DNA from: Zopfochytrium polystomum
Taxonomy: Eukaryota; Chytridiomycota; Chytridiomycetes; Chytridiales; Chytridiaceae
Direction: 5' to 3'
NCBI GenBank assembly: GCA_025765615.1
Contig: JAIVFJ010000172.1
Location: forward strand, 1 to 64,000
Length of the DNA stretch: 64,000 nt
A program made the position numbers and the translations under genes. The notes beneath the pieces were generated by a model. That model saw only the letters and a program-made list of their open reading frames with translations, searched no databases and was not told where the DNA came from. This document shows, one piece after another, positions 35,282-62,970 of the stretch (the stretch's first letter is position 1; every line of letters begins with the position of its first letter).

Positions 35282-35548
35282 ATGGACGGCATCAAAACGA
35301 TCGTCGAGACGGCCGCCGGCGCCGTGCCGGGCCTGCGCGAGGTGCTCAGCGTCGCGCTGCTGATCCACCGCACGCTCGAGGCGCGCAAATCGTCCATTCG
35401 CCACCTCGACCTGCTGCGGGACAAGGTCGAGCTCATTGCCGTCGCTCTGCACCGAAAGTACGCCCCCGGCGGCGGCAAGACCGACGCTGCCGCCGCACCG
35501 GAAGCAGCCAACTCCGGAACCACCGACGATGGCGATGGCAACGGCATG

Positions 35549-35581
<33 letters not shown>

Positions 35582-38500
35582 AATGGCAATGGCGACGGCG
35601 ACAGCGGCGGCAACGGCGATGGCAACGGCGACGGCGGCAGTGGTGGCGATGACCACATCCTGGCAGGCCTGGCCCAGTGCCTGCGCGACCTGCAGCAGTG
35701 GATCGAGAAGCAGCTTGCAAAGAACGTGCTCAAGCAGCTGGCACAAGCCGCGTCCATCAAGGAAAAGGCCCTCCTGTACGACGGCAGGCTCACGGCGTAC
35801 ATCCAGGCTCTGCAGCTGGCTGCCATGCAGCCCTCGGGTCTCACCAGACAGGCCACTCAGGTGGACCCCGACTCGTCCGTGCGCGCCATGACCGCGGCCG
35901 TCGAGGCAGACCTTTCCGACCTCCGCGCCGGCCTCGCCGAGCTCCTCCAAGAGCACGCCAACGACACGCTAGACCAGCTGCTCGCGCGGCTGGACATTTC
36001 CAACGCAAACATGATCGACTCGATCAACAACCTCCAGGATCTGCACCGCGACTCGATTGCCCAGAACGAGGCCGTCGCCCGCCACCTCCAGCGGCTCGAG
36101 TCGCGCCTGGCCAGCCGGTCGGGCTACCATCCCTCCTCGGCCGCGGCGGTGCCATGGACCGTCATCAACGAGGACGACCTGACGTACGTGCGCAAGGACG
36201 CCATCGGATCTGGGTCGTTTGGCGAGGTGTACCTCGCGCGCTGGGGGACGTCTGAGGTCGCCGTGAAAAAGGCCCTGGACGCGGTGGTGGTCGGGCGAGA
36301 GAGCCGCGAGTCGATCCACAAGGAGGTGCTGGCGTGGAGCCGGCTGCACCCGCATCCGAACGTCGTGACGCTGTTTGGCGCGTGCGTCGACACGGACCGG
36401 CCGTTCCTCGTCATGAAGTACTTCCCGCTCGGGAACCTCGCCGACCGCCTCGCCGTCGACCCGGACGTCGGCCTCGACTCGCGCGTCAAGTGGATGTTTG
36501 AGGTGTGTCTCGGCCTCATTCACATCCACGAGGCCGGCATTTTCCACGGCGACCTCAAGGCGGACAACGTGATGCTGGACGATTTGAACGGCTCCGTGAC
36601 GGCGAAAATCACAGACTTTGGACTGAGCCAGTTCAAGCGGACCGGAGCCGCGTCAAGGGAGAAATCCAAAACGCAGGACCTCACCGGCGCTGTTCGATGG
36701 AAGGCGCCCGAATCTTACCAGCGGCAGTACAAGATGACGACCTCCTTTGACGTTTATGCCTTTGGAATGACTGCCTATCAGATCCTCACGGGAAAGATCC
36801 CCTTTTATGAAGAACCAAACGCCTGGGTTGTCCGTGATTGGATCAAAGATGGGGAGCTTCCGACGAAACCGGAGCACCTTGAAGGTACCATGTTTAATTA
36901 CTGGTTCTTAAGTTGACGAAATAATTGTCGATTAGACTCTGCACCATTATGGGAGGCCATAGTCAGCTGTCTCAAGCTCAAACCTGAGCAGAGGGCAACG
37001 CTTCGCCAGGTGACTTGCACTTACACTGGTATGCCGAAGAAACTGACTCTGGCGTCGCCCGAAGGTTCGATCCTTCTTAGAAACAGAGTACGACTGCACC
37101 AGAACTGCCGTAGCTCCTCCGGCTCCACCACCCAAAGATCCGCTCGCGGACAGCGGTTACTCGTCAATGGTCAACACTCCGTCGCCGCCTGCAGCCCAAA
37201 GACAGCGATCGCCGGCTGCGTCGTCGAGTCACACGGACAAGATACTGGCCGACCTGGCGGTAAGCCATCCCGCGGCTGTGCAGTTCTGGAAGTACTGGGC
37301 GTCAGACGACGGCGGGGTCCGCAGCAAGCTTCCGTGGGGAGAGTTTGCGCATGGGTTGGAGGCGGCGCTGCTCCTTGGCGACAATTTGCGCGAGGTGGAC
37401 GTCGAGATCCTCAGGACAGCTGTGGGCAGAGGGTACCCGACGGAGTTACCGGTGCAAGCGTTTGCAGAGTTTGTAAAGAGGACTGACCCGCAGGGGGAGT
37501 TCGCCGAGAGCTTTCGTTTTGCGATTGGACCTTCCAGCCTCGAGAAGAGCAAGGCAGAGAAGGAGCGCGCGAAGCTTGAGCAGGCGCAAAAGGCGATTGA
37601 GGACAGGTTTTCGCACCGTATTGTCAAGGGAGGTTGGAACGAGGAAAAGTGCACTTTTAAAGGATTGACTGACGAGGAGAAGGAGGCCATGCATGAAGCT
37701 CTCGGAACGAACACGACGCTGAAGGAACTTGAAATACTCTGTAAGCTGGACTCTGTTCTTTCTACCCGTCGAAATCGCAACCTGCTAATGCGTCTCGCTT
37801 CTCTCGTCCAACAGCTCGTACGTATTCGTAAAGTGTTGTTAACTTCTGGCTGAACTGTTACGTTAAACATTTTGTTGAAAAACGCTCGAATTGCAGCAAG
37901 TGAGTCTTTTGCTTGTTCAGGGACGGCGAAGCCATAAAAAAGTGAACTGACGCCGTCTAACGTAAACTCCCGCGATACGCATATTCTCAGTCGGTCTGTA
38001 GACTTTCTTTAGCCCGCACTGTGCTCAACAGCCAACTGACACTTTCTTTTGGGACCCTATCTATATCCCGCTTGTTGATGGCTGCTAGCTTGTGAGTTAT
38101 CATGCGTCACGAGAGTGATGCTTCTGAAAATCTTAGTGTTGCCGTTACTCATTGTCGCCCCTTAGTTTGTAGGTGCAGAAGTGTTGAGTGACCTCATCCC
38201 GGATCGTGCGCTAAACTTGTCATTTCTGTCCATGACCATCACAAACGTGCATTACTGGAAGACAGTAAGACATTTGTGCAATTCTCCCTTCCATACGGAA
38301 ATGATCTAACATTGGATTCACTTCAGTGTGTAAGTTCTCTTTCAAGAATAATTGGAACTCGCAGTAAAATCTCTTCACATGAATCTGCACTGGCTGGTGA
38401 TGGCTCTTTGATTACAGTATGTGAGTGGACAATTGAGACTGATTTTCAATCTGCTTCACACATCTCATGAACAACATACTCCTTCATTTTCTAATATGCC

Positions 38501-39890
38501 GTCTCTCTAAACCCACTTTCCCCAAATATCGCATATTAGCTCGTAAGTACTTCTGTGCAGAAGCTTAATGTTTGCAATGCTCACAGCAGGCCGAAAATTT
38601 CTTCGTAACTGTCCTGAATATCTGTGCAACGTTCAGCCTGTAAGTTGACATGCTCTTATATTCTGAAGCGACACCTCTTTTATTGACGCAACTCTTTTTA
38701 AAGCCTGTAAGTTCATTCCAGATTCAGGAATATCTCTCTCCTGACCTTGATCCATCCATTCAACGTTGCGGCTTTTGGGATCACCAGCTTGTAAGCGCTA
38801 GATGGCTTTTGCATTAAGACTATTTGAACTCATCGAAAACATCGTCCCACTCTTCTCAAAATTGGGAATCTGTTTCTCCGAAAGTCTGTAAGTTCGCTGA
38901 TTTTCTTAGTTTCTTGCAATCAAATCTAATGCGGATCCGGCGGGTTTTACCAAGCCTGTAAGTAATCGACGCCGCAACTGCAGTCAATTGATCATCCTCT
39001 GGTTTCGGCTCCTCAACGCCAAAAATTGGTGGATTTCTTAGACTGTGAGTCCCAAAAATGCTGCCAGGAGAAAATTTGACTGTTGTCTAATTATTTCTTC
39101 TGACCTTCGTGACATTCCCCAGTCAGTAAGTAATGGTCAAATTTCCACCACTGGATTGACTGGATGCGCAATATGTTCATGCAATTGATATTTGCTTTCA
39201 AACGTCCCATCCATTCCTTCAGCTGGTGAGAATTCAAGATCTTCTTTTATTCACATTTTATGTTCCTAAATAGTTTTGGTTTACTTCCAGCCTGTAAGTT
39301 TCCAACGACACGCCAGCTTCACCACACCGTCACCTCACGCTCACCCTTCAATTATTTTCACGCGATTGGACCGTTCCTTCAGTTGGTCAGTAGCTTCCAT
39401 CTTTTCTGCCTGCCTCTGCTCAATCTCTGACACCTGCTACAAAAAAAAAATATAAAAAATAAAAAATTTGAATGGTCTGCTGACTACTCTTCCGGCGGCA
39501 AGCAGCTGGTGCGTTCACGGGGCCTCCCTATCCGTCGTTCAGGCTAACCGCAAACCCCCCTCATTCAGAGAAAGGCTTGTACGGTAGCAAGAGCTCGATC
39601 GCCACGCTGGCCGAGGCCCTCAAGAAGAACAACACACTGGAAAGTCTGAACCTGGAAAGTAAGGAAACAGAGTGTTAGGGGCGGGTGCTTCCCCATCCGT
39701 AGTTACAGTGCGTTGGTTACAAAACTTCGGGCTTTATTTTCTTCAAGGACATCGAACGTTCAGCGAGCGGGACATCCTCAAGGAGGGTGTTGCGGCAAGC
39801 AGCTCGCTCAAGAGCTTGAATATCACAGGTCTGATTGCTTTTGCGCTCGCCCTTTCACCCTCGCGGAGAGAAATAGAAACAAGAAACTGA
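35282..39890 (+). CDS. TKL-type protein kinase with N-terminal helical domain and C-terminal leucine-rich repeats (paralogue 1)
   Basis: Ordinary exons: 35282-36884, 36936-37009, 37065-37740, 39569-39658, 39748-39890. Between 37740 and 39569 lies the single-codon exon array described separately; with all 20 included the product is about 881 aa. Residues 1-60 and 115-250 are helical, like the N-terminal bundles of MLKL and mcc-type proteins, split by an Asn/Gly/Asp-rich linker. The kinase runs about 300-560: GSGSFGEVY (about 309), AVKK (Lys about 329), HGDLKADNV (about 421; Gly replaces the HRD Arg), DFGLSQF (about 445), WKAPESY. A conserved spacer follows (HPAAVQFWKYWASDDGG...LPWGEFAHGLE), then LRRs: TLKELEIL, GLYGSKSSIATLAEALKKNN, EGVAASSSLKSLNIT. 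The 3' end is uncertain; a further homologous-looking frame lies at 39925-40135. Confidence 0.88.
37741..39568 (+). other. array of 20 candidate 3-nt (single-codon) exons in kinase gene 1
   Basis: Between the donor after 37740 (phase 1) and the acceptor at 39567-39568, the pattern AG-NNN-GT recurs 20 times. Triplets start at 37815, 37897, 37991, 38089, 38166, 38262, 38327, 38418, 38540, 38637, 38704, 38788, 38885, 38955, 39042, 39123, 39223, 39291, 39383 and 39506. The 21 intervening introns are 60-120 nt, the usual size here. Donors are mostly GTAAGT or GTGAGT; exceptions are GTACGT (first), GTCTGT (third), GTCAGT (19th) and GTGCGT (20th). Most acceptors follow a pyrimidine tract. Triplets are pyrimidine-rich (CCT four times). 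Joined in phase they leave the frame open and add 20 residues (S P I A F ... A F A E). The reading as real exons is inference; the spacing is seen directly. Confidence 0.75.
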
Positions 39891-40340
39891 CTCTTTCGTT
39901 TCCCCCCCCTCATTTTTTCTGTGGCAATCGTGATGTGAAGAAAACGGCTTTCCCAAAAGAGGAGCTTCTCGCGCTGGGTGGCCCAGCCACGTTCGCATCA
40001 CGTTTTGACAAGCAAGCGACGCGCTGGAACGAGACATTTGAAGGGGTAACCGTGTGTGTCGGTCGTAAAGCAGGAATCTTGCGTCGGGAAGGAGAGGAAA
40101 AAGCAATGGGAGGGTTAGTCTTATTAGCAAACTGAAGGAAAGGATGGAAAGAAGAAGGCAGGCTCCTCGCGCCTTTACTGTTGATCGTTGTCTCATTGAT
40201 CGTGGAATGAATGCATGCTAGTGCGTGGGCTTGGTGTGACAGGATGCCGCACAGAAACATGGCGGGGTGCAAGCGAAAAGCTTGGGAGCATAGCGCAGTG
40301 CGAGTGTGGCGGAAGGAAGGGATGAGCCATAAAATGTTGT
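39891..40340 (+). other. region downstream of kinase gene 1
   Basis: A frame from about 39925 to 40135 (GNRDVKKTAFPKEELLALGG..., ending GLVLLAN) is reminiscent of the terminal GN-GFPKN exon of paralogue 2, but no AG acceptor precedes it. It may be an extra 3' exon or 3' flank. Beyond 40135 nothing was recognised. Confidence 0.3.
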
Positions 40341-42664: not shown

Positions 42665-44446
42665 TCAGAGGAAATGAGCACGTATGTCAATGTGTTTTGT
42701 GCGAGCATGTGTGAGAGGGCTGAGCACTAGTGCGATTACAGATTGATTGTCCTCGAGGATTGGTAGTGGTCGCTGGGCAGGGAGTTGCAACTCTGATAAT
42801 ATGGCTAAGAGCCATTGTGCTTCTTGGAAGGCTTCAGAAAGTGAGTAGTATTCTGCTTCTGTGGACGATAGCGATAATTGATGTTGTTTGCGTGAGACCC
42901 AAGAGACAGCGGCGCCCATGAGGAAGAAGACATATCCAGTGCGCGATGTGCAGTCTCCAGGTTCGCCCCCATAGGATGCATCATCGTATGCAGCTGGTTC
43001 AAGGGTGTCATTTGTGAAGAGCCATAGCGGCTTGTGGCTTTGCCTGTAGAATAATCCGTAGTCTTTGGTGCCTTGGCATATCCAGTGCGCGATGTGCAGT
43101 CTCCAGGTTAGCCCCATAGGATGCATCAGCGTATGCAGCTGGCTCAAGGGTGCCATTTGTGAAGAGCTGTAGCAGCTTGTGGCTTTGCCTGTAGAATAAT
43201 CTGTAGTCTTTGGTGCCTTGGAGGTAACGAAGCAGGCGGCAGAGTGCATTGCAATGGCACTGGCGTGGCTTCAGTTGGAACTGGGAGAGTACATTTGTTG
43301 CAAATGCAATATCTGGTCGAGTTTGTGTTGCGAGGTATTGAATTTTCATGAGTATGGATCGATACCAGTTTGAGTTGCTCTTGCTGAGTTCGATTGACGT
43401 TTCGTCATGCATAAAGGTGATAGACATTGGAGTTGATGTGATATCCAGGTCATCTCACATTTTCTCTTCAGTGAGAATTGTCCTGGTGTATTCATCGAGG
43501 CCCATCCAAATGCCTTCAGCGTTGCGCTTGAGGTGGATGCGAATTACTTTGCTGGCAGTAGTTTCCTTGAGAGACATGCTGTACTCAGTGCAAAAAGCAT
43601 CCTCAATTTTTGTGACAAGAGCTGGGGTGTTGGCCATGACGTTGATGTTGTTGACAAAAACAAAGATGATTTCATATGTTTGCTGCTGAGGGCCTTCTCG
43701 AAAGAAGAGGCAGGGCTCAGCAAGAGATTGATTGAGGCTGAGTTTCTTGACAATGAACTTGCAAAGGTTTCGTCGAGATTGATGAAGTCCATAGAGCCTC
43801 TTGAGGAGTTTGCAGAATAATTTCTTTCCATCTGGAGTGAATCGCTTGTGGCCTTTGGTAGATGCTTGTAGATGACTTCTTTGAGGAAAGCGTACAGGTG
43901 GGCTGTGTTGACATCCATGCTGTGGTACTCAAGGTCAAAAGCAAGGCTGATTGCAATGAGCAGTTGGATGGCCTGGATCCGGACAACAGGAGAAAAGGTG
44001 TCTGTGTAGTTGATACCTTTGTGTTGGGTGTTTCCACATGCAACAAGACAGGCTTTCCATTGCTTCAGCCAGTCACAAGGGTCGAGCCTGTAGGTATAAA
44101 CCCATTTGCAGAACATTGTGCATTTGCCAGGAGGAAGAGCTGCCCATTCCCAGACCTTGTGCTCATTCATCCATGAGGGAGTGAAGTTCCTCAAGCTCAG
44201 ATGCAGTCCATTCTTCATTATAGTCTGATGCATGGGCTTCCTTGTGGGAACGTGGCACTGGTGGGAGTTGTGATTAGTGGATTGGTTCTTTGGGGAAGCA
44301 CTTTGGAAAACGTGGTTCTGTTTTGGCTGATGCAAGGTATAGTCGCAAAAGATGGTAAGTGATTGTTTGATTTGCAAGTAGCTTGTGAAGTCCACTTGGT
44401 GCATCTTTGATGTTGGCAATAACAGATGGTGGAAGTGGTGATTCAA
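42665..44446 (-). pseudogene. Copia reverse transcriptase and RNase H, broken
   Basis: Fragments in several frames. RT: WAALPPGKCTMFCKWVYTYR, then NTQHKGINYTDTFSPVV, AISLAFDLEYHSMDVNTA and EVIYKHLPK. At the catalytic box, where Copia RTs have (Y/F)VDD, the sequence reads VFVNNINVM, so both Asp are Asn. RNase H: YLATQTRPDIAFATNVLSQF, YVFFLMGAAVSWVSRKQHQL, STEAEYYSLSEAFQEAQWLL and THARTKHIDIRAHFL. A tandem duplication of about 140 bp disrupts it. It cannot be functional. Confidence 0.85.
42935..43220 (-). repeat. tandem duplication inside Copia RNase H
   Basis: Two adjacent copies of about 140 bp, starting at 42936 and 43080 with CCAGTGCGCGATGTGCAGTC and ending with TAGTCTTTGGTGCCTTGG. They differ at about a dozen positions. 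Confidence 0.85.
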
Positions 44447-45468
44447 TGACAGGTTCTGGTTCAGTGTTGATGGATACTGCTATGCAGTCTGCTGGTGGAG
44501 CTAGGCTCTCTTCAGGTTTGTCTTCATTTTTGCCTAAGACGACAGCAAATGTGTCAGGGTTCCAACCGTAGTCGTCATCGTCATTATTGTCTTCCATATC
44601 TTGGGGAAGAGTTGGAGGTTGATCTGAGGTGTTTGTTGATGATGATGGCAGCTGTCCCCCCCTGGAAGCCTGGCGCAGTTGCTGGCGAGTATGAGTGGAG
44701 GGAGCACTGTCAGGAGGAGAGTTGGATAATCGACAGTAAGAGTCAAGTGGTGGCTCGAAAGAAGGAGAGTCGTCAGGTTCAGGAAAATCTGTAAAATCAT
44801 CAGAGAGAGAAAAAATCAGAATTAAGAGATTGAAGCTTAGTGTCACTGCAGACAATGCCAGGAAAGACATGCTCATGCCAGTTATAGTGGCGTGTCCGAA
44901 GGATGGTTCGTGCAGCAAAGTTGTAGCTAAGCGCAATAGACTCGCTGTCTGTGTCGAAGAGTCCAAGTGAGGCCTGAGGAGAGAACTTGGTCTTGTGTGA
45001 GTTTGCAGGTTCTGTGTACTCATTGTTGAGTGTGACAATGAGGCAGCCAAAATTCCAAGGTGGCGTAGGTTGAGTTTTCAGCCTTGGTAATATTCAAATG
45101 GAATTCAACCAGTGCGAGTGTGTTGCACACGATTGCACAGGAATGAAGCATGGCGTATTGCGTAGGACCAGAAGAACCGTGGACGCTGGGCTTCGATCAG
45201 GAGACAGGAAGCAATGTGGGTGATGACCTTGATGGCATTTTCTGCAACACCATCACCCTCCTTCACATAAGGGACAGAAGGCTGAAAGACAATGGGAGGT
45301 TGGTGGTTGATACAGTAGGCCTCAAATTGCTGAGTGTTAAGACCGAGGTTGTCTGCCTGTACAAATAGTGTTCGGTGAGTGGGGAAGAGTTGCTCTTCAA
45401 AATCAATGCAATCAATTATCCTTTGAGTGACGCCTGCTGTGCAAGCAACAGTGTTGACCCAAGTATAG

Positions 45469-50158: not shown

Positions 50159-53100
50159 TCATCTCCCCCTTTTAGGCCTCTTCTGCAACTTGGTGGGGTA
50201 CCTGGTCTTGAACTTGAGCAGAAGGTCTTGGCAGTGAGTGAGGTTTGACTCAGGTTCCCAGGTGTTGTCAGCATCTGAGTAACCTTTCCACTTAACAAGG
50301 AACTTGAGTGTTCTTCCAAACCACTTGGCATCCAAGATTTGTTCAACCTCAAATTCCTCTTCACCTTCTACCTCAACTGGAGGAGGAGGAGGAACAACTC
50401 TGCCTGGAATGGAATTGGCCACAAACTTCTCTAAAAGGCTGACATGGAAAACTGGGTGGATCTTCATGGATGCAGGGAGATCCAGCTTGAAGGTGACTGG
50501 ATTGATTTGCTCCAAGATCTTGAAAGGACCCAACTTGAGGTTGTCTAGCTTGGGACTTGGTCTTTTGGTCTGCAAGTTCTTCCTCAGAAGCCAAACTTGC
50601 TGACCCACAGCAAGGTCATGGTCCATTCTGTGAGTGTTGGCAAATCTTGAGGCATCTTCTTGGGCTTGCTTCAGGGTGGAGTCCAGGAAGGAGTTGATGA
50701 TCTTGAGCTTATGTAAGTGTGAAGCCGCAGCAGGAGCTTGGACATTGGATAGGGTCTCTTGTCCCAGAAGATCTCCTCTTGGATTGAAGCCATAGGTTGC
50801 AAAGAAAGGAGATAGCTGGGTGCTTGAGTGGAGAGAATTGTTGAGAGCAAATTCTGCCAGTGGAAGGAGGGTGGGCCAATCATCCTGTTGATAGCTGACA
50901 TAGCACCTCAAATACTGCTCCAGAGTCTGGTTTGTTCTTTCTGTTTGTCCATCAGTCTGAGGGTGATAAGCAGTTGACAGTTGAGACTTGATTCCAAGGG
51001 CTGCTGTGAGTGCTTTCCAAAATTGAGATCTGAACTGTGGTCCTCTGTCACTGACGATTGACTGAGGCAGCCCATGGAGCCTGAATATGTGCTGCAAAAA
51101 CAGGTCTGCTGTTCCTTGTGCATCTATATTCTCAGTGCAGGGGATGAAATGGGCCAACTTTGTCCTTCTGCAGATGACAACAAGGATAGAGTCAAATCCA
51201 TGGGATGGGGGCAGTTTCACAATGAAGTCCATGGATATTGATGACCAAGGGCTGATGGCAATTGGGAGGGGCTCCAGAAGTCCATAGGGCTTGTGTCTGC
51301 TGGACTTGTTTCTTTGACAGGTTTCACAGCTGCTGACATAGTTCTTGATGTACTTCCTCATGCCTGGCCAGTAGAAGTCTCTGGAAACAAGCTCATAGGT
51401 CTTGTGCTCTCCTGGGTGTCCAGCTGTTGCTGCATCATGCCTTGTCTTGAGTATCTCAAGTTTTTCCTCTTCTTGGCTGATTTGAATCTTGTGAGGCTTG
51501 TGGTCCTTGGAAATAGCATGGGCCCACACACTGTCAGGAAGCAATGAAAGGTGTGTCTTGGATGGTGGGGTGAAACCATCTCCCCCTTCAGGTGCAAGGT
51601 CTGTTCTTCTTGACAGGGCATCAGCCACAGTGTTAAGGTGGCCAGGAGAATAGCACAGCTTAAAGTCATACTCAGAGAGCAGTTCAGCCCACCTGGCATG
51701 CCTCTGCTTGAGCAACCTCCTTGCCCTGAAGAAGGTGAGGTTCTTGTGATCAGAATAGACAGAGATGCCTTTAGAACCAGCCAAGTAGTGTCTCCAGAAT
51801 TTGAATGCTTCCACAATTGCAAGCAACTCCTTGTCATGGACTGTGTAGTTACACTCAGCACAGCTTCCTGGAGTAATATGCCACTGGATGCAGAGGAGCA
51901 GAGGGTTCCTGAGAGCTTGGCTGGGACAGAACAGCGCCAAGGGCATAGTCTGAGGCATCAGTTTCCAAGGTGAAGGGAAGCAAGGGATCCACATGCTTAA
52001 GGAGTGGTGCACTTGTGGTTGCTGTCTTAAGAGCTAGCCAGGCTTGCTCTGCTGCTGGGGTCCATTCAAACTTGGTGGTCTTCTTGGTGAGATCAGTGAG
52101 AGGCTTGGCTATGGCAGAATAGTTGGCAATGAAGGTTCTGTAGAAGTTGCAAAATCCAAGGAAGCTTTGAACATCCTTGATGGAATTTGGAGCCTTCCAT
52201 TCAAGAATAGTTTGGATCTTGTCTGGTGCCATGGAGATCCCTTTGTCAGACACAATGAACCCCAAAAACTCAATGGAGGTCTTGTGGAATTCACACTTCT
52301 CCAGCTTTGCATAGAGGTGATGCTGTCTGAGTCTCTCCAAGACAGTCTTGACATGTCCCATATGGCTTGCAGTGTCAGATGAAAATACCAGGATATCATC
52401 CAGGTAGACAATGACAAAAAGGTCCAGAATATCCCTGAAGATGTCATTCATCATGCCTTGGAAAATAGCTGGAGCATTGGTAAGTCCAAAGGGCATAACC
52501 AAGTACTCAAAGTGACCGTATTTGCATCTGAAGGCAGTCTTCCATTGATCCTGGGGCTTAATTCTGACCAAATTGTAGGCACCTCTGAGGTCAATCTTGG
52601 AAAATATCCTTGCATGGCTCAGTTTGTCCAGTAATTCAGAGATGAGAGGCAGTGGATAGCGGTTCTTGACTGTCATCTCATTGAGATCTCTGTAGTCCAC
52701 ACAGGGTCTCAGTCCCCCATCCTTCTTCTTGACAAAAAAGATGGGAGCTCCAGCTGGTGACTTGGAAGGTTGGATGAATCCCTTGTTCAGCATTTCTTCA
52801 ATGTATTCTTGGAGGGCCTTGGCTTCTGGTGGAGAGAGGTGGTACAGTGGCTTGAAAGGTGGGCTGCAAGTTTCATCCTTGAGTGGGATTTCACAGTCAT
52901 AAGGCCTCTGAGCTGGTAGCAGGTCTGCCTTGGTCTTGGAAAACACATCAGCATAAGGGAGATATTCTTTTGGTAGCTTGGATGCCAGCAAAAGGTCTGA
53001 TGGGTCCAGGTTGTCGTGCTCCTCAGCAGTGGGGCTTGAATTCTTGACTGGGAACTGTGATTCTTGAATCTTTGACTGAGAGTTCTGTTCTTGGCAAAGA

Positions 53101-53873
53101 CTGTGAGCTGTGGAACTTGAATCTTGAATGTGGACTGTGAACTGTGGTACTTGAATCTTTGACTGTGGGTTCTGTGAACAAGAGTCATGGCCATGACTGT
53201 GAGCTCTATGAGCTCTACTTGAATCTTGACTGTGAACTGTGAACTGTGGAACTTGAGTCTTGGCTGGCTGTGAATCTTGAATCAAGGGCTTGAGAGCATG
53301 AGACTTGGGGGCTTGACTTGAGTTTTGGGTGACTGTTCCGATTGGTGGAGGTTGGACTTGACCAGTGACCCAATCAATGGCAGGGTTCTGGGTTTGCAGC
53401 CATGGTAATCCCAGGATGACAGAGAATGTGGGTGAGCCAAGATCCAATACTTCCAGATTGACCATGGATGGTGGAAAGTCTTGGATGTGGAGGTTTAGCT
53501 TGGTTTCATGGCTGATTTCCTTGAACAGAGCATGATTGGCAAAGTGGACCTTGAGGGGTGTGGATTTCTTGATCGTAGGAATGGCACAAGACTTGGCAAG
53601 GGTGGCATCAATGATGTTGCAGGATGATCCAGAGTCTATAAGGGCCTTGGTTGTGATGGTTGACTTGGGTGAGAGTTGAATCTTGACATCCATGGTGAGT
53701 TGGTGGGGCTTGGAATCTGAGGTGTTTGTGGTGCTGGTGGTGGTGATGAAACAGGGGCAGCTTGGAGGAGGGTCCAGGGAATTGCCCCTCAGTGAGCCTG
53801 GACCTGGGAGTTTGGGTGCTTCTTCCTTGGGCAGTCCTTGACAGCATGCTCCTTGGAGCCACAGTAAAAACAC
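50159..53873 (-). pseudogene. pol: Gypsy Pol (protease, RT, RNase H, integrase, chromodomain), frameshifted
   Basis: First part (53873-51855): protease LIDSGSSCNII, RT with VDYRDLNEMTVKNRYPLPLI, RIFSKIDLRGAYNLVRIK, VMPFGLTNAP and the active-site YLDD in FVIVYLDDILVFSS, up to HPVAYYSRKL, where it stops. Second part (frame shifted by one base, to 50159): RNase H ECNYTVHDKELLAIVEAF, integrase zinc finger (HPGEH...CETCQ), core SMDFIVKLP, SDRGPQFRSQFW and HPQTDGQTERTNQ, and a C-terminal chromodomain FLVKWKGYSDADNTWEPESN. Chromodomains guide integration to marked chromatin. Relative to the family, bases are missing at about 51880, so this copy likely cannot make full Pol. Confidence 0.92.
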
Positions 53874-54712
53874 AGTCCCTGCTGGGCCCTCCTTGTTTTC
53901 TCCTCTTGGCTCAGAGGACCCTTAGGAAGTGTCTCAACTGCATCCACTTGCATGGGTTCAGGAACTGTAAGAGCTTGAGGAACTGGGGTAGGTCTTGATG
54001 TAGTTCCTACTTGTCTTTGCTTCAGCCTCTTGGAGTAGAGTCTGTTGTCAATCTTGATGGCAAGGAGAATGTACTCTTCCAAGGTCTCAGGGATGTGCAG
54101 AGACTGGGAGAGCATGTCTTGGATAGACTCATGGAGACCATCATGGTACAGCTCCATCAGAGCTGCATCATTGTATCCAGAGTCTCTGGCTAGTTGCTTG
54201 AATTGGTTGGTGTAGGCCACACAAGATTGCTTTCCTTGCTTGATATGCTTGAGCTTGGATCTTGCTGTCCAAGATGCGTAGGGGTCACCAAAGGTAGCTT
54301 CCAGCCCCTCCCAGAGCTCTTGCAGGGTGGTGGGTGTGCTTGGGAGAGATCTGTACCATGATTGAGCTTGACCAGACAGGAGGGTGCTTGTGAAAAGAAC
54401 CTTGACTTGCTCACTGGGAAATCTTGAAGGTTGGAGAAGGATGACATTCTCCACAGTGGCCATGAAGTTCCTAAGGTCTTTGGCCAGCCCAGTGAACTTG
54501 TCAGGGCTGGGAACCTTGGGCTCTCTTGCTTGGTTGGCTTGAGGCAGGGGAAGAGCTTGATGTTCTTGTTGGTGGAGTTGTTGTTGAAGCTGGTGCTGCT
54601 GGTGAAGGACTTGTTCTTGAAGTTGGTGTGTCTGTCTTGAGAGGGCTTGTAATTGGTCCATCAAGGCTTGGAAGGCAGTTGCATCAGGGAAGGTGTTGTT
54701 TGGGTCAGACAT
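53789..54712 (-). CDS. gag: Gypsy Gag
   Basis: 307 aa from the ATG at 54712. Gln-rich coiled-coil start (MDQLQALSRQTHQLQEQVLH), then the retrotransposon Gag core: PDKFTGLAKDLRNFMATVEN, QAQSWYRSLPSTPTTLQELW, AYTNQFKQLARDSGYNDAAL. The C-terminus has a CCHC zinc knuckle (CFYCGSKEHAVKDC) that binds the element's RNA. It overlaps the pol frame by 85 nt; the pol frame is shifted by -1, consistent with programmed frameshifting. Intact. Confidence 0.93.
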   Translation of the reverse strand: MSDPNNTFPDATAFQALMDQLQALSRQTHQLQEQVLHQQHQLQQQLHQQEHQALPLPQANQAREPKVPSPDKFTGLAKDLRNFMATVENVILLQPSRFPSEQVKVLFTSTLLSGQAQSWYRSLPSTPTTLQELWEGLEATFGDPYASWTARSKLKHIKQGKQSCVAYTNQFKQLARDSGYNDAALMELYHDGLHESIQDMLSQSLHIPETLEEYILLAIKIDNRLYSKRLKQRQVGTTSRPTPVPQALTVPEPMQVDAVETLPKGPLSQEEKTRRAQQGLCFYCGSKEHAVKDCPRKKHPNSQVQAH

Positions 54713-54752
54713 GATGGCAGAGAGTAGTGGGAGAGGGTGAAGTGAATTATGA

Positions 54753-55105
54753 TGTCAGGAACAGGGCAGGACAGGACAAGGCAGACAAGGAACTGAGAGG
54801 AGGGATGATTGTATTGGAAACAATAATTCACTTGAGGGATGGGACAGGTCCCCCATCCCCCTTTTATACCTTTTGAGAGTGTTCCTTGTCAAGACTCCAA
54901 GAAAGTTCCAGAAAGAGCAATTAGTAATACAATGATACCAATGATACCAATGACAACAAGACAAGTCAGGAAAGCAAAGAAGGTTCCAGAAGGTTCCACA
55001 AGGTTCCATGAAGGAATGTTCTAGAAGGTTCCAGAAGGTTCCAGAAGGTTCCATGAAGGAATGTTCTAGAAGGTTCCAGAGGTTTCCAGAGGGTGATTCA
55101 TAACA
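54753..55105 (-). repeat. Gypsy 5' LTR (promoter copy)
   Basis: 353 bp. In the minus-strand direction of transcription it begins with the heat-shock-element-like array, followed about 110 bp later by a TATA box (TATAAAAG, 54868-54861). Confidence 0.95.
54979..55091 (-). promoter_or_regulatory. heat-shock-element-like array in the Gypsy LTR U3
   Basis: Alternating GAA and TTC units at 5-bp spacing, for example TTCTAGAAGGTTCCAGAAGG continuing with GTTCC. This is the nGAAnnTTCn arrangement bound by heat shock factor. Two long runs occur, at about 55018-55056 and 55062-55091, plus a shorter one near 54979-54998. The array is upstream of the TATA box in the element's own direction. HSF binding is inferred from the motif. 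Confidence 0.7.
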
Positions 55106-58131: not shown

Positions 58132-58398
58132 ATGGACGCCATCAAAACGATCGTCGAGACGGCCGCCGGCGCCGTGCCGGGCCTGCGCGAGGTGCTCAGC
58201 GTCGCGCTGCTGATCCACCGCACGCTCGAGGCGCGCAAATCGTCCATTCGCCACCTCGACCTGCTGCGGGACAAGGTCGAGCTCATTGCCGTCGCTCTGC
58301 ACCGAAAGTACGCCCCCGGCGGCGGCAAGACCGACGCTGCCGCCGCACCGGAAGCAGCCAACTCCGGAACCACCGACGATGGCGATGGCAACGGCATG

Positions 58399-58431
<33 letters not shown>

Positions 58432-61400
58432 AATGGCAATGGCGACGGCGACAGCGGCGGCAACGGCGATGGCAACGGCGACGGCGGCAGTGGTGGCGAT
58501 GACCACATCCTGGCAGGCCTGGCCCAGTGCCTGCGCGACCTGCAGCAGTGGATCGAGAAGCAGCTTGCAAAGAACGTGCTCAAGCAGCTGGCACAAGCCG
58601 CGTCCATCAAGGAAAAGGCCCTCCTGTACGACGGCAGGCTCACGGCGTACATCCAGGCTCTGCAGCTGGCTGCCATGCAGCCCTCGGGTCTCACCAGACA
58701 GGCCACTCAGGTGGACCCCGACTCGTCCGTGCGCGCCATGACCGCGGCCGTCGAGGCAGACCTTTCCGACCTCCGCGCCGGCCTCGCCGAGCTCCTCCAA
58801 GAGCACGCCAACGACACGCTAGACCAGCTGCTCGCGCGGCTGGACATTTCCAACGCAAACATGATCGACTCGATCAACAACCTCCAGGATCTGCACCGCG
58901 ACTCGATTGCCCAGAACGAGGCCGTCGCCCGCCACCTCCAGCGGCTCGAGTCGCGCCTGGCCAGCCGGTCGGGCTACCATCCCTCCTCGGCCGCGGCGGT
59001 GCCATGGACCGTCATCAACGAGGACGACCTGACGTACGTGCGCAAGGACGCCATCGGATCTGGGTCGTTTGGCGAGGTGTACCTCGCGCGCTGGGGGACG
59101 TCTGAGGTCGCCGTGAAAAAGGCCCTGGACGCGGTGGTGGTCGGGCGAGAGAGCCGCGAGTCGATCCACAAGGAGGTGCTGGCGTGGAGCCGGCTGCACC
59201 CGCATCCGAACGTCGTGACGCTGTTTGGCGCGTGCGTCGACACGGACCGGCCGTTCCTCGTCATGAAGTACTTCCCGCTCGGGAACCTCGCCGACCGCCT
59301 CGCCGTCGACCCGGACGTCGGCCTCGACTCGCGCGTCAAGTGGATGTTTGAGGTGTGTCTCGGCCTCATTCACATCCACGAGGCCGGCATTTTCCACGGC
59401 GACCTCAAGGCGGACAACGTGATGCTGGACGATTTGAACGGCTCCGTGACGGCGAAAATCACAGACTTTGGACTGAGCCAGTTCAAGCGGACCGGAGCCG
59501 CGTCAAGGGAGAAATCCAAAACGCAGGACCTCACCGGCGCTGTTCGATGGAAGGCGCCCGAATCTTACCAGCGGCAGTACAAGATGACGACCTCCTTTGA
59601 CGTTTATGCCTTTGGAATGACTGCCTATCAGATCCTCACGGGAAAGATCCCCTTTTATGAAGAACCAAACGCCTGGGTTGTCCGTGATTGGATCAAAGAT
59701 GGGGAGCTTCCGACTAAACCGGAAAACGTTGAAGGTAAAAATATGAGACTGGACGCCAGAAGAAGATTAAATGTAGTTTATGGCAGAGACAGGCACGCTG
59801 TGGCATTGCATTACCGCCTGCTTGAAGGTCAATCCAGAGCAACGGTCAACGGCTTATCAGGTGTGCGCTGTTTTCCCTTTCTCTCCCATCTTACGACGTT
59901 GAAGACGCGATCCGTCTTGGAGGTAGAATTTCTCAAATTGAAGGCTCCTCTTCCCACTCGACCAGTACCCTCAGTTGCACTTGAGCGAGGTGCCGAGTCC
60001 ATTGGTGAGAGCAATAGCAGCGCACTCTCATCAGCAGACACACGCCTCAACAGTGGACCTTCATCTCTGAATAAGCCGTTGCCACCGACTGCTGGCAGCA
60101 GCCACGTTCCTACAAACAACACACCGCGGCTCTTGGTCAATCTGGGTACGACTCACCCTGACGCCGCTCGATTCTGGTCGAAATGTGCCTCTGATGGCAT
60201 AAGCATTCGCGAACGGCTGCCGTGGAATGATTTTGTTCGCGGATTGGAGCAGGAGCTGTTCAAAGGTGGCTCGAATCAATCAGTCGATGTTTCCATCTTG
60301 AAGATGATGTTTGGAGAAGGCCAGAGCGCCGACATCTCTCTGTCGGCGTTTTCTCGTTTTATCAAAGCAACAGCTGTGGGGTCCAGTGTGCGAGACATTT
60401 TTCTGCTCGCTGTGAGCCAAGTTTCATCAGGGGAGAATTGGAGACATGTAAGTCGCCTGAGATGAATAAGCAGTGAGTTAATCATCCGTAGGAGTCGAGA
60501 AGAACGTTCCAACGTCGAATAGTCCAAGGGGGTTGGGATGAGGAGTACTGCGTCTTCAGAGGGCTGAGCGAGGATGAAAAAGCAGCCATGCACGAAGCGC
60601 TTGCGACCAATCGAACTGTGAAATGCTTGGAAATAATTTGTGAGTGGCATTTCGTTCAACCAGCTTTCTAGTCGAATTTAGCAAATCTTGTTTCAATTAC
60701 ACAGCACGTGAGAAAGCACGCCTTCTTGCTGGATAAATAGTTCTAACCGAATCCTGCACCATGAACATTTACTGAAAGCATGTGAGCTTTCTTTATCAAC
60801 ATTGCGTAGGGTTGACGAATGCGAGCACCTCTTACATAACAAAAATCGTCGTTCATCTATCTTACCTGCCTGCGGCATCAGTGCGTAAGTACACTTGTTT
60901 ACTCAACAATTCAAAAGCACCCTCTCATGACGTTCTTTCGTAAGCTTGTGAGTAATCTGTAGTGAGATTACCCTTGCCTCTAATTAAACTATTACGAAAA
61001 ATCTCTCGTTCATGCGCGGAAACCAAGCCGGTAAGTACTATGCGCATCCTCTTCTGCATTAGAGCTTCCATGCTGATTGAAGCGAACCAATCAACTCTAT
61101 ATTCCGACCTGTCCATGAAAAGAAAGTGCGTAACACATAAAATAGAGAAGCATTTTCGCTAATTATTTTTCCAGTTCGTGAGTCCGCTTCGACACAACTT
61201 CCTTTCTCTAACAGATCCATAAATTGGCTGTACTTGTCCACTGAAAGCTCGTGAGTAAGACGTTTCAAAAAGTGGAGTTTCCGATTAACGATCCGTCGTT
61301 TACAATCTGTTGGATCGTTGCTTGAAATCTTAAGCTGGTGAGCAACGCACTAACTTTTGTCTTGAATCTCATTCAATGCCTTATCTCCCAGGCCGTGAGT

Positions 61401-62970
61401 ATCTGTGATTCATTGCTTGGTGCATTGTCCCGAGTCTTTGGTCTGACTTCCGGAAATTGGACCCGCGCCCGGCCTGTCGTGACAAATCAGCATGTGAGTG
61501 TAAGGGCTTATTCAACATTGTCAGGGTACTGAAGCCAGTTCTTTTCACATTCGTTGTCAGTCGGTAAGTGACCGCGCGTCGGCTCTTTCGTTAAAGGGCA
61601 AACTGATCCAACACCTTCAACCCTGCACACTGGATGCTACTAGTGCGTAAGTAGATTTGTATTCCTCCCATTTTGGGCGGCAGTCACTATTTTCTGTTCG
61701 TGTTTTGCGAGCTAATCTAGCACAATAGTTTGTAAGTAGAGGTGTCGATTTCTTTGTCCTGTTATGCTCATCGATCGTGATGTCAACCTGTTTCTCCGGT
61801 CTTACTCGAACACTTTGAAGATAGTAAGTTTTTTGTTCAAAACTTCTGAGAAATACGGACAATCTCACCCGTCTTTCCAGCTCGTAGGTCCTTTAGTGGC
61901 TGTGCAGATTGAAGAGCGCTAACGCAGCATGCCGTAACTATTAACTGAAACACGTTGACTCTCGCCCAGCCGGTAAATTTTGCTACACAAGATACATTCG
62001 AAGCCTACTCACAGATTTTCTCCCTTTTTTCAGGCTGTAAGAAATGCCACAGTCCTTGTTATCTATTCCTAAATCATTTCTTCGTCATTTCACATGACCG
62101 GCGTAATTTGGGATGTCGGAGCAGCCGGTGAGTGATTTGATAGGACTCTAACAATTCTGTTTCTAATTGCCTCCGCGCAAAATGGACTTCAGTTGGTAAC
62201 GTTGCTCAATAAAATCAACAAATCAGCCATCTCACCTGCTGTCTCAATGGCACTTTTTGCATTTTGGTCTTTAGTTTGTAGGTGTTGTATTTTGAATGTT
62301 CGAGGATTGGCCGCTCACTTCGCGCTCTTCTCTCCTTCCCCCCATTAAATTATGAAGCTGGTGAGTCGTGCATTTTGTTTTGAGGCTATGGGTTTTGATG
62401 TTGTATTACACCCCAAGCCTGTAGGAAATAATTCTCTCGGAAATTGCTTTGAACTGACTTCATTCATTTTTACGGCGTGGCACATGTGCATCCACTGGTC
62501 TTCGACAGTCGGTGAGTAGTTGGATTGAAAAAGAATTGCTCTCACACTGACCATCGCTTCCCAACAGCCGGTGAGACTTCTTCAGATGTAGACTAAGAAA
62601 TTTGAAAATTCAAATGCTTAGATAATGGGCTGTACGGAACGAAACGCTCTATTGCGACCCTAAGCCAAGCTCTCAAGTTGAACAACACTTTGGAGGAGCT
62701 CCACTTGGAAAGTAAGTTCAACAGCGGAAAATTTCTGCACGGACGTTGAGCCACGTGTCCCCACGAAGACCATCGAGTCCGAAACGAACGCAAGGTTCTT
62801 GCGGCAGGAGCTAGCGGAAGCAAATCACTTCGATACGTGAACCTGAAAGGTGCGGTGCGGAAATGCATTGGGACAAGCGAGGCATCTGACCATTGCTGAA
62901 AGGTAATGGGTTCCCCAAGAACACTGGAGCCAAGGACGGATGGCCGAAACAACTGCAATTGTCTATTTGA
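58132..62970 (+). CDS. TKL-type protein kinase with N-terminal helical domain and C-terminal leucine-rich repeats (paralogue 2)
   Basis: Ordinary exons: 58132-59734, 59787-59860, 59905-60447, 60492-60639, 62622-62711, 62769-62849, 62903-62970. The array between 60639 and 62622 is described separately; with 25 codons included the product is about 893 aa. Exon 1 (helical N-terminus, Asn/Gly linker, kinase to WIKDGELPTKPE) is identical to paralogue 1 over nearly its whole length, including the HGD (non-RD) catalytic loop. Exon 2 has the same 74-nt length as in paralogue 1 but different sequence (TGTLWHCITACLKVNPEQRS). The spacer domain (HPDAARFWSKCASDGISIRE) and LRRs (TVKCLEII, NGLYGTKRSIATLSQALKLN, KSLRYVNLK) are only moderately similar. 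A terminal exon encodes GNGFPKNTGAKDGWPKQLQL and stops. Likely a soluble signalling receptor kinase. Confidence 0.9.
60640..62621 (+). other. array of 25 candidate 3-nt (single-codon) exons in kinase gene 2
   Basis: Same position and phase as in paralogue 1. AG-NNN-GT triplets start at 60705, 60779, 60882, 60945, 61028, 61127, 61175, 61248, 61335, 61392, 61491, 61561, 61644, 61729, 61821, 61881, 61970, 62034, 62125, 62193, 62275, 62358, 62418, 62509 and 62568. Introns are 45-100 nt. The sixth is ambiguous (TGC at 61127 or AAA at 61123) and leaves the shortest intron (45 or 49 nt). Joined in phase the frame stays open. The encoded loop begins S P L and ends S A F A D before NGLYG, as in paralogue 1 (S P I ... 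A F A E before KGLYG). The last four triplets, CTG CCT TCG CCG, parallel CTG CCT TTG CTG of paralogue 1. Confidence 0.75.

Follow-up and report, generated by a model that had tools for sequence, protein, structure and literature searches.

The window analysed here is a stretch of 64,000 nucleotides (nt) of contig JAIVFJ010000172.1 of the chytrid Zopfochytrium polystomum, and all coordinates are positions in it on the forward (+) strand unless another stretch is named. In a protein kinase gene of this window (gene A), what looks like one intron of 1.8 kb contains a row of splice-site sequences that enclose three nucleotides each (array A), and the same arrangement is found in a paralogous kinase gene of the window (array B) and in 13 further arrays elsewhere in the genome, with 12 to 24 such three-base stretches per gene. 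Judged from its sequence, the array is most probably a hypervariable protein loop written one codon per exon. Since the triplets are the most variable part of the tandem copies of the array, it looks less like a curiosity of splicing than like a device with which a protein loop is both written and varied. The original prediction, which was made for array A, had claimed twenty consecutive single-codon exons; at the sequence level, this is strongly supported by the spacing of the splice sites, the open frame, the conserved ends of the paralogous arrays, the hypervariability of the triplets and the branch motifs.

Splice-site spacing in arrays A and B

As had been claimed, 20 AG-NNN-GT sites cut the sequence from 37741 to 39568 into 21 segments of 60 to 120 nt, and no stop interrupts the 20 triplets or the remainder of the gene in the chosen exon model, in which every triplet is included and the product has 884 amino acids (aa). 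The donor, stated to be GT(A/G)AG throughout, is GTRAG at 15 of the 20 triplets, so that the description was slightly too strict for the other five (GTACGT, GTCTGT, GTAGGT, GTCAGT and GTGCGT); triplets of arrays A and B with such donors were picked by eye. The layout of gene A is as follows.

35282..36884, +, gene A exon 1, coding for the N-terminal region and the bulk of the kinase domain
36936..37028, +, gene A exon 2 (remainder of the kinase domain) in the full-inclusion model; as the NCBI protein is read here, the exon would end at 37009 instead
37081..37740, +, gene A exon 3 (family-specific domain and first strand resembling a leucine-rich repeat (LRR); ends in phase 1 with T/); as the NCBI protein is read here, the exon would start at 37065 instead
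37741..39568, +, array A, 21 introns (60-120 nt) and 20 predicted exons of 3 nt
37815..37817, +, A1 CTC
37897..37899, +, A2 CAA
37991..37993, +, A3 TCG (weak donor GTCTGT)
38089..38091, +, A4 CTT
38166..38168, +, A5 TTT
38262..38264, +, A6 ACA
38327..38329, +, A7 TGT
38418..38420, +, A8 TAT
38540..38542, +, A9 CTC
38637..38639, +, A10 CCT
38704..38706, +, A11 CCT
38788..38790, +, A12 CTT
38885..38887, +, A13 TCT
38955..38957, +, A14 CCT
39042..39044, +, A15 ACT
39123..39125, +, A16 TCA
39223..39225, +, A17 CTG
39291..39293, +, A18 CCT
39383..39385, +, A19 TTG
39506..39508, +, A20 CTG (donor GTGCGT)
39569..39658, +, gene A exon after the array (AG/AAAGGC..., KGLYGSKSS..., LRR-like)
39748..39828, +, gene A LRR-like exon
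39941..40008, +, gene A last coding exon

First of all, the spacing is fixed. When the number of bases k between an acceptor AG and a donor GTRAG is counted, k = 3 occurs 15 times in array A, every other k from 0 to 19 is absent and k = 20 occurs once; in array B, k = 3 occurs 19 times, and in both arrays every other k up to 30 occurs between zero and two times. The earlier claim that chance would not hold the spacing at three survived comparison with both shuffled and ordinary DNA: AGNNNGTRAG occurs 52 times in the whole window, and dinucleotide shuffles give 14.0 ± 3.5; twelve further 4-kb pieces of genome sequence, read on both strands, show no excess, with 12 occurrences of k = 3 and 5 to 15 of each other k from 0 to 12. 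In the remainder of the window outside the arrays, k = 3 is likewise no commoner than other spacings. A chance origin of the sites is rejected on these spacing counts, shuffles and other genome stretches. Moreover, the branch motif CTRAY lies 12 to 45 nt upstream of 18 of the 46 acceptors of A and B (circular-shift mean 11.0, P 0.0075) and upstream of only 4 of 81 unused AGs; the tighter form CTRAC gives P 0.023.

Array B, which the original prediction does not mention, was first seen in a scan as another run of sites, at 60703 to 62566. It occupies the same position and phase as array A, and its introns are about 50 to 144 nt long.

60640..62621, +, array B, 25 introns and 24 predicted exons of 3 nt, in the paralogous kinase gene
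60705..60707, +, B1 CAC
60779..60781, +, B2 CAT
60882..60884, +, B3 TGC
60945..60947, +, B4 CTT
61028..61030, +, B5 CCG
61175..61177, +, B6 TTC
61248..61250, +, B7 CTC
61335..61337, +, B8 CTG
61392..61394, +, B9 GCC
61491..61493, +, B10 CAT
61561..61563, +, B11 TCG
61644..61646, +, B12 TGC
61729..61731, +, B13 TTT
61821..61823, +, B14 ATA
61881..61883, +, B15 CTC
61970..61972, +, B16 CCG
62034..62036, +, B17 GCT
62125..62127, +, B18 CCG
62193..62195, +, B19 TTG
62275..62277, +, B20 TTT
62358..62360, +, B21 CTG
62418..62420, +, B22 CCT
62509..62511, +, B23 TCG
62568..62570, +, B24 CCG
62622..62711, +, gene B exon after the array (AT/AATGGG..., NGLYGTKRS...), read directly

The end triplets of the two arrays (the first four and the last five) are identical at 19 of 27 nt, against a shuffled mean of 9.4 (P 0.0001), and the peptide ends are alike, SPIA...TAFAEKGLYG in A and SPLP...SAFADNGLYG in B, in which KGLYG and NGLYG come from the ordinary exon after the array. 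Among the introns of A and B, no similarity was found at E<0.01. A common origin of these introns was considered and rejected; one 231-bp (base-pair) tandem unit from the copies described below also had no match to A or B introns at E<1.

The gene family, its hypervariable triplets and the predicted loop

In the 80 Mb of genome searched, from which the family and unit counts are lower bounds, there are at least 15 gene copies with the upstream exon, and all 15 carry an array downstream. Thirteen of the 15 have introns that form tandem repeats of about 230 bp, each containing a triplet, and one 231-bp unit has at least 200 matches in the genome, those listed lying on seven contigs. Fourteen stretches with tandem-repeat arrays were fetched (L055 to L068). 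When the exon length was left free from 0 to 30, 163 of the 165 units scored in these 14 stretches left exactly 3 nt; the remaining two are AAT in a shifted register and CCCT, of 4 nt, in the indel-rich L062. L062, a near-copy of L063, and L068, a broken copy with two scored units, were omitted from the reading of arrays and from the pooled diversity, so that 14 arrays were read, that is, A, B and 12 tandem arrays. In L065, CAT at 807 and a GCG unit near 1918 were excluded; one unit of L066, with 2 nt in front of GTCAG, was counted as a complete triplet in line with the units around it. In L057, L060 and L065, the stop-scan script missed the exon that follows the array, and other matches there report no stop.

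The 12 tandem arrays share a common leader, namely T/CAC/, a 9-nt exon such as CAATACCAG, and CAT, after which the variable triplets follow; then comes TTG or CTG in nine of the 12, and finally the exon with GLY. The mean flank distance between units is 3.7 to 5.7% in L063, L064 and L066 and 13 to 25% in the other nine; such high similarity of units is absent from A and B, whose introns are unrelated.

For the diversity, 152 units of the 12 arrays were pooled with 100 nt on each side (203 nt aligned; columns with more than 30% gaps dropped), and 7 of the 12 arrays were also viewed singly. The three triplet columns reach 0.74, 0.68 and 0.70, and the 199 other columns with enough letters have a mean of 0.19 and a maximum of 0.56, so none of them reaches the triplet. 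In L063, the most uniform array (14 units), the triplet columns give 0.80, 0.56 and 0.70 against a mean of 0.036 over the other 200 columns. The number of non-triplet columns that reach the lowest triplet column is 0 in L063 and L061, 1 in L066, 3 in L064 and 5 in L067; the triplets thus stand out clearly in young arrays and less sharply in old ones.

Comparison of copies and units indicates how the arrays differ. Between L063 and L064, the last 76 nt of the upstream exon are identical and the following exon differs by 1.1%, yet 14 of 14 triplets differ; L062 and L063 are 97.5% identical over 3342 bp, yet differ by two units. Blocks such as ATG TTG AGC in L067 recur. In a given array, the flanks of units that share a triplet are closer to each other than those of units with different triplets (0.120 against 0.163, beyond 60 of 60 shuffles), which is predicted by duplication of units.

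When the triplets are joined in order in phase 1, no stop appears in any of the 14 arrays read; shuffling the triplet order with the ends fixed yields a mean of 3.3 stops, and 1.1% of such shuffles are free of stops. The frame and aromatic tests were rerun on sets that omitted L066, then both L065 and L066, and then these two together with L055 and L059; over five array sets, the proportion of stop-free shuffles is 1.3 to 1.6%. The predicted loops begin with SP in 14 of 14 arrays and continue into the GLY exon, and those of the tandem arrays have 10 to 22 variable residues; the loop sequence differs in every gene read and is rich in Tyr and Asp. Among the variable residues of the 12 tandem arrays, Phe, Trp and Tyr make up 28.6% (Tyr 13.1%) and Asp 10.3%, against 13.5% Phe/Trp/Tyr after position-wise shuffling and 16% expected from intron composition. 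A test of the aromatic residues on triplet order gave P 0.010 to 0.030 in three reduced sets with A and B retained, and P 0.0012 in a version with the last triplet free. The loops of antibodies are likewise rich in Tyr.

Several features of the copies are recorded beside these results. On contig C39, at about 36 to 136 kb, six tandem-array copies are clustered within about 100 kb on both strands. In L061, L062, L063, L064 and L066, a telomere-like TAACCCTAACCC stands in the last intron directly before the final exon and may be a recombination signal. In L055 (near 2666 in reading direction) and L058 (near 2957), the final acceptor TTTGCAG/AA reads in frame as FAEKGLYG and FAEMGLYG, respectively, which resembles the AFAEKG spelled by separate triplets in array A; this final splice site may have been made from former coding sequence.

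Proposed mechanism and alternative explanations

In the proposed mechanism, each triplet between an acceptor AG and a donor GT is a predicted exon, and splicing of all triplets in order would insert 15 to 27 residues into the LRR-like region of the kinase. The introns, about 50 to 230 nt long, are likely suited to intron definition and to removal one after another, since two spliceosomes could hardly use the same 3-nt exon simultaneously; a stepwise, codon-depositing splicing, as originally proposed, is plausible. The array would grow by unequal exchange of a unit made of a 3-nt exon plus an intron, so that one unit gained or lost would mean one codon, with the frame unbroken. Homogenisation of introns, together with diversifying selection on the triplets, which is likely, would keep the introns alike and the codons different; that is to say, the pattern among units appears to be explained by known processes, namely concerted intron evolution and diversifying selection on triplets. 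A and B would be old arrays whose introns have since diverged.

Several observations weigh against the reading of the array as a loop written codon by codon. The NCBI protein of gene A (P0121) does not use the triplets as exons; its model, as read, has one 1.55-kb intron up to 39290, an exon at 39291 to 39385 that includes intron 19, and then continues from 39571 onwards. The number of exons is uncertain in both arrays of the window, owing to the weak donor GTCTGT at A3 and to a possible 25th triplet of array B, AAA near 61125, in the 144-nt intron. With the looser branch motif YTRAY, P is 0.095. The joined triplets are stop-free in phase 0 too, and in phase 2 stops occur in only 3 of 14 arrays (L056, L058 and L067), so openness alone is not specific to phase 1; the phase-0 reading, with no stops and 3.4% aromatic residues, was set aside because the flanking exons fix phase 1. 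Triplet order by itself accounts for a modest excess of aromatic residues (27.2% against 23.7%, P 0.013), and in the strictest set, of 8 tandem arrays, P is 0.16. In L055 and L059, 39 of 200 and 39 of 198 other columns, respectively, are as variable as the lowest triplet column, and between arrays, the association of triplet and flank is not seen (0.188 against 0.190). No unspliced or retro-copied form of the loop, which would be an independent witness of splicing, was found in the genome with a 150-nt spliced query, which matched only its own two exons, and two spliced-peptide queries gave only exon pieces among the best candidates scored. Some copies are damaged: the exon after the array has a TAA in L055 and a frameshift in L059 and L066, L066 also has a stop in the upstream exon and the 2-nt unit, and L062 is rich in indels. 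L068 (C109:120000-127000) is a broken array end, in which the two scored units are followed by unrelated sequence and a final exon with disrupted frame. Finally, the designation kinase-LRR gene holds for the kinase (PF07714, E 1.2e-43 in P0121) and is weak for the LRR, which is LRR-like by eye and reaches only 12.6 bits with LRR_6 (E 0.15), below the cut-off of 23.4.

The alternatives concern first the use of the triplets. If they are real exons of which subsets are skipped, one gene could give many loops. Any subset would keep the frame, and triplets starting with AA, AG or GA, from which a preceding T would make a stop, are under-represented (9 of 175 against 18.2 expected, P 0.010); against this, consecutive joins give 0 stops in 217 codons and skips of one to five exons 15 in 875, a modest difference that is compatible with some skipping, and joining to the final exon can create a TAA or a TAG. 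Such combinatorial use is considered unlikely.

The second alternative is that the triplets are rewritten by targeted mutation or replacement at the DNA level, and not by selection on ordinary mutations. In its favour, 17 of the 34 unit pairs of L063, L064 and L066 whose flanks differ by at most 1.5% over 200 nt differ in the triplet, some having all three triplet bases changed against one change in 200 flanking bases, and the lack of triplet-flank association between arrays noted above points the same way. However, recombination among units with few segregating intron sites can also yield near-identical flanks by chance, and the skewed vocabulary, in which 10 triplets account for 131 of 175, fits the reuse of units, as does the clustering of same-triplet units within arrays. 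Variation peaks in the triplet, where its rate and mechanism are inseparable from selection; targeted rewriting is regarded as rather improbable.

In the third alternative, the 1.8-kb stretch is one intron, removed at once or stepwise at non-exonic ratchet points, and the triplets never enter the messenger RNA. It accords with the single long intron that the NCBI model places over most of array A, and long introns are known to be cut by recursive splice sites. However, no zero-length site (k = 0) occurs in A or B, for which reason recursive splicing at zero-nt ratchet points was rejected; direct joining of the exons around the array produces TAA or TAG in 11 of the 14 arrays; and intronic triplets would not be expected to be the most variable columns or to show conserved ends between A and B. 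On this evidence the one-intron explanation is very unlikely. An artefact of assembly or repeats, to which tandem repeats are prone and which could explain the indels of L062 and L066 as poor consensus, can hardly be entertained, as the non-repetitive A and B show the same architecture and the arrays are spread over seven contigs.

The kinase proteins and related systems

Under the preferred reading, in which the triplets are spliced into a protein loop, the gene A product has an N-terminal region, a kinase domain, a domain without Pfam match and a short LRR-like region that holds the variable loop. The kinase carries the motifs GSGSFGEV, VAVKK, HGDLKADN, DFG and APE and, judged by these catalytic motifs, is probably active. 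Only protein-kinase families passed the Pfam cut-off, NACHT and NB-ARC were not found, and the N-terminal region and exon 3 gave nothing convincing at E up to 10. No 19-residue stretch of the model has a mean hydropathy above 1.46; the highest, 1.45, is at residues 10 to 28, which by hydropathy only is not a clear signal or membrane segment. The structure of exon 3 predicted without alignment had a mean predicted local distance difference test score of 47.7 and was not used. For the 231-aa family-specific domain, no homologue was found elsewhere in a search whose length filter excludes full-length kinases; with the full-length model and residues 590 to 884 scored, one match was obtained among 7995 candidates, the NCBI "kinase-like domain-containing protein", which is gene A's own entry. 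A search of plasmid DNA gave one 54-nt match, taken as chance. Another protein encoded in the window, TRAPPC13, has its nearest relatives among named entries in chytrids.

From the hypervariability and the architecture, a role of the loop in recognition is inferred: on a kinase that shows no evident membrane segment, a loop with much Tyr and Asp would be a recognition surface, for example for self/non-self or parasite sensing. A more far-reaching idea, regarded as an unlikely speculation, is an antibody-like repertoire in a unicellular fungus, in which codon cassettes would be gained, lost and rewritten in the DNA, perhaps by targeted replacement of the triplet with the intron untouched, and serially spliced into the recognition loop of a kinase.

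Lamprey VLR, Dscam and diversity-generating retroelements are systems in which binding loops are diversified within a conserved scaffold, and their diversity comes from LRR cassettes, whole alternative exons and reverse-transcribed adenine mutagenesis, respectively, not from codon-sized exons. Tiny exons, micro-exon genes (MEGs), recursive splicing and hypervariable fungal recognition repeats are already known. The open-access subset of PubMed Central yielded no report of one-codon exon arrays or of hypervariable codons borne by repeated introns.

The MEGs of Schistosoma mansoni are described as runs of very short exons, mostly multiples of three, with which automatic annotation struggles; they have 10 to 20 exons of 6 to 81 bp (3 to 81 in the abstract), mostly 15 bp, introns of 0.1 to 5 kb, and secreted products (PMC10526429). 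The chytrid arrays resemble them, by sequence only, in having many consecutive tiny exons that are multiples of three; unlike MEGs, all exons of their variable part are 3 nt, the introns are mostly tandem repeats, and the variability lies in the triplet of a kinase gene. Exons of 1 nt are spliced in plant APC11 and VPS55 and exons of 3 bp in human RPS24 and Drosophila homothorax (PMC4674806, PMC8831610, PMC11162997, PMC7392893), and for the APC11 exon, intron definition with successive removal of the two introns was proposed (PMC4674806). These exons are isolated, RPS24 having three neighbouring microexons (3, 18 and 22 bp), and the excerpts of these papers describe neither arrays of 3-nt exons nor hypervariability. 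With recursive splicing, the arrays share serial AG...GT sites in one apparent long intron and a likely stepwise removal, but ratchet points leave no bases and the chytrid sites hold 3 bases each.

Fungal NLR repeats (WD40 in HET-D, HET-E and HET-R; TPR; ANK) are near-identical and polymorphic in number, evolve in concert and have a few positively selected codons per repeat, in recognition proteins (PMC4986451). The tandem arrays of the chytrid likewise have highly similar units and few hypervariable positions in each. In the fungal NLRs as described there, however, the repeat is a protein repeat with variable codons inside it, whereas in the chytrid, the intron is the repeat and the triplet is the whole exon; moreover, no NACHT or NB-ARC accompanies the chytrid loop, which lies in an LRR-like region and not in WD, ANK or TPR repeats. 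In 2010, fungi were described as being without LRR pattern-recognition receptors (PMC2939053).

If confirmed, the arrays would be a new way to encode protein diversity, in which the introns form a repeated scaffold, single codons serve as exchangeable cassettes, and recombination could alter the length and sequence of a loop without frameshifts. The succession of tiny exons would place an extreme load on the spliceosome and offer a natural test of the removal of introns three bases apart, and an early-diverging fungus would gain a candidate family of variable recognition kinases.

Some observations concern genes A and B as a whole. Their family-specific domains are 35% identical over the first hundred residues and 60% over the last 47. 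Their kinase halves (35282 to 36884 in A, about 58132 to 59730 in B) are 99% identical over 138 aa, and the start of the following domain is 35% identical, as if only the first half of the genes had been copied in a recent duplication or gene conversion. Between the two genes, gag-pol-like retroelement frames were recognised by eye at 50159 to 54754 and 42665 to 45077, both on the reverse (-) strand.

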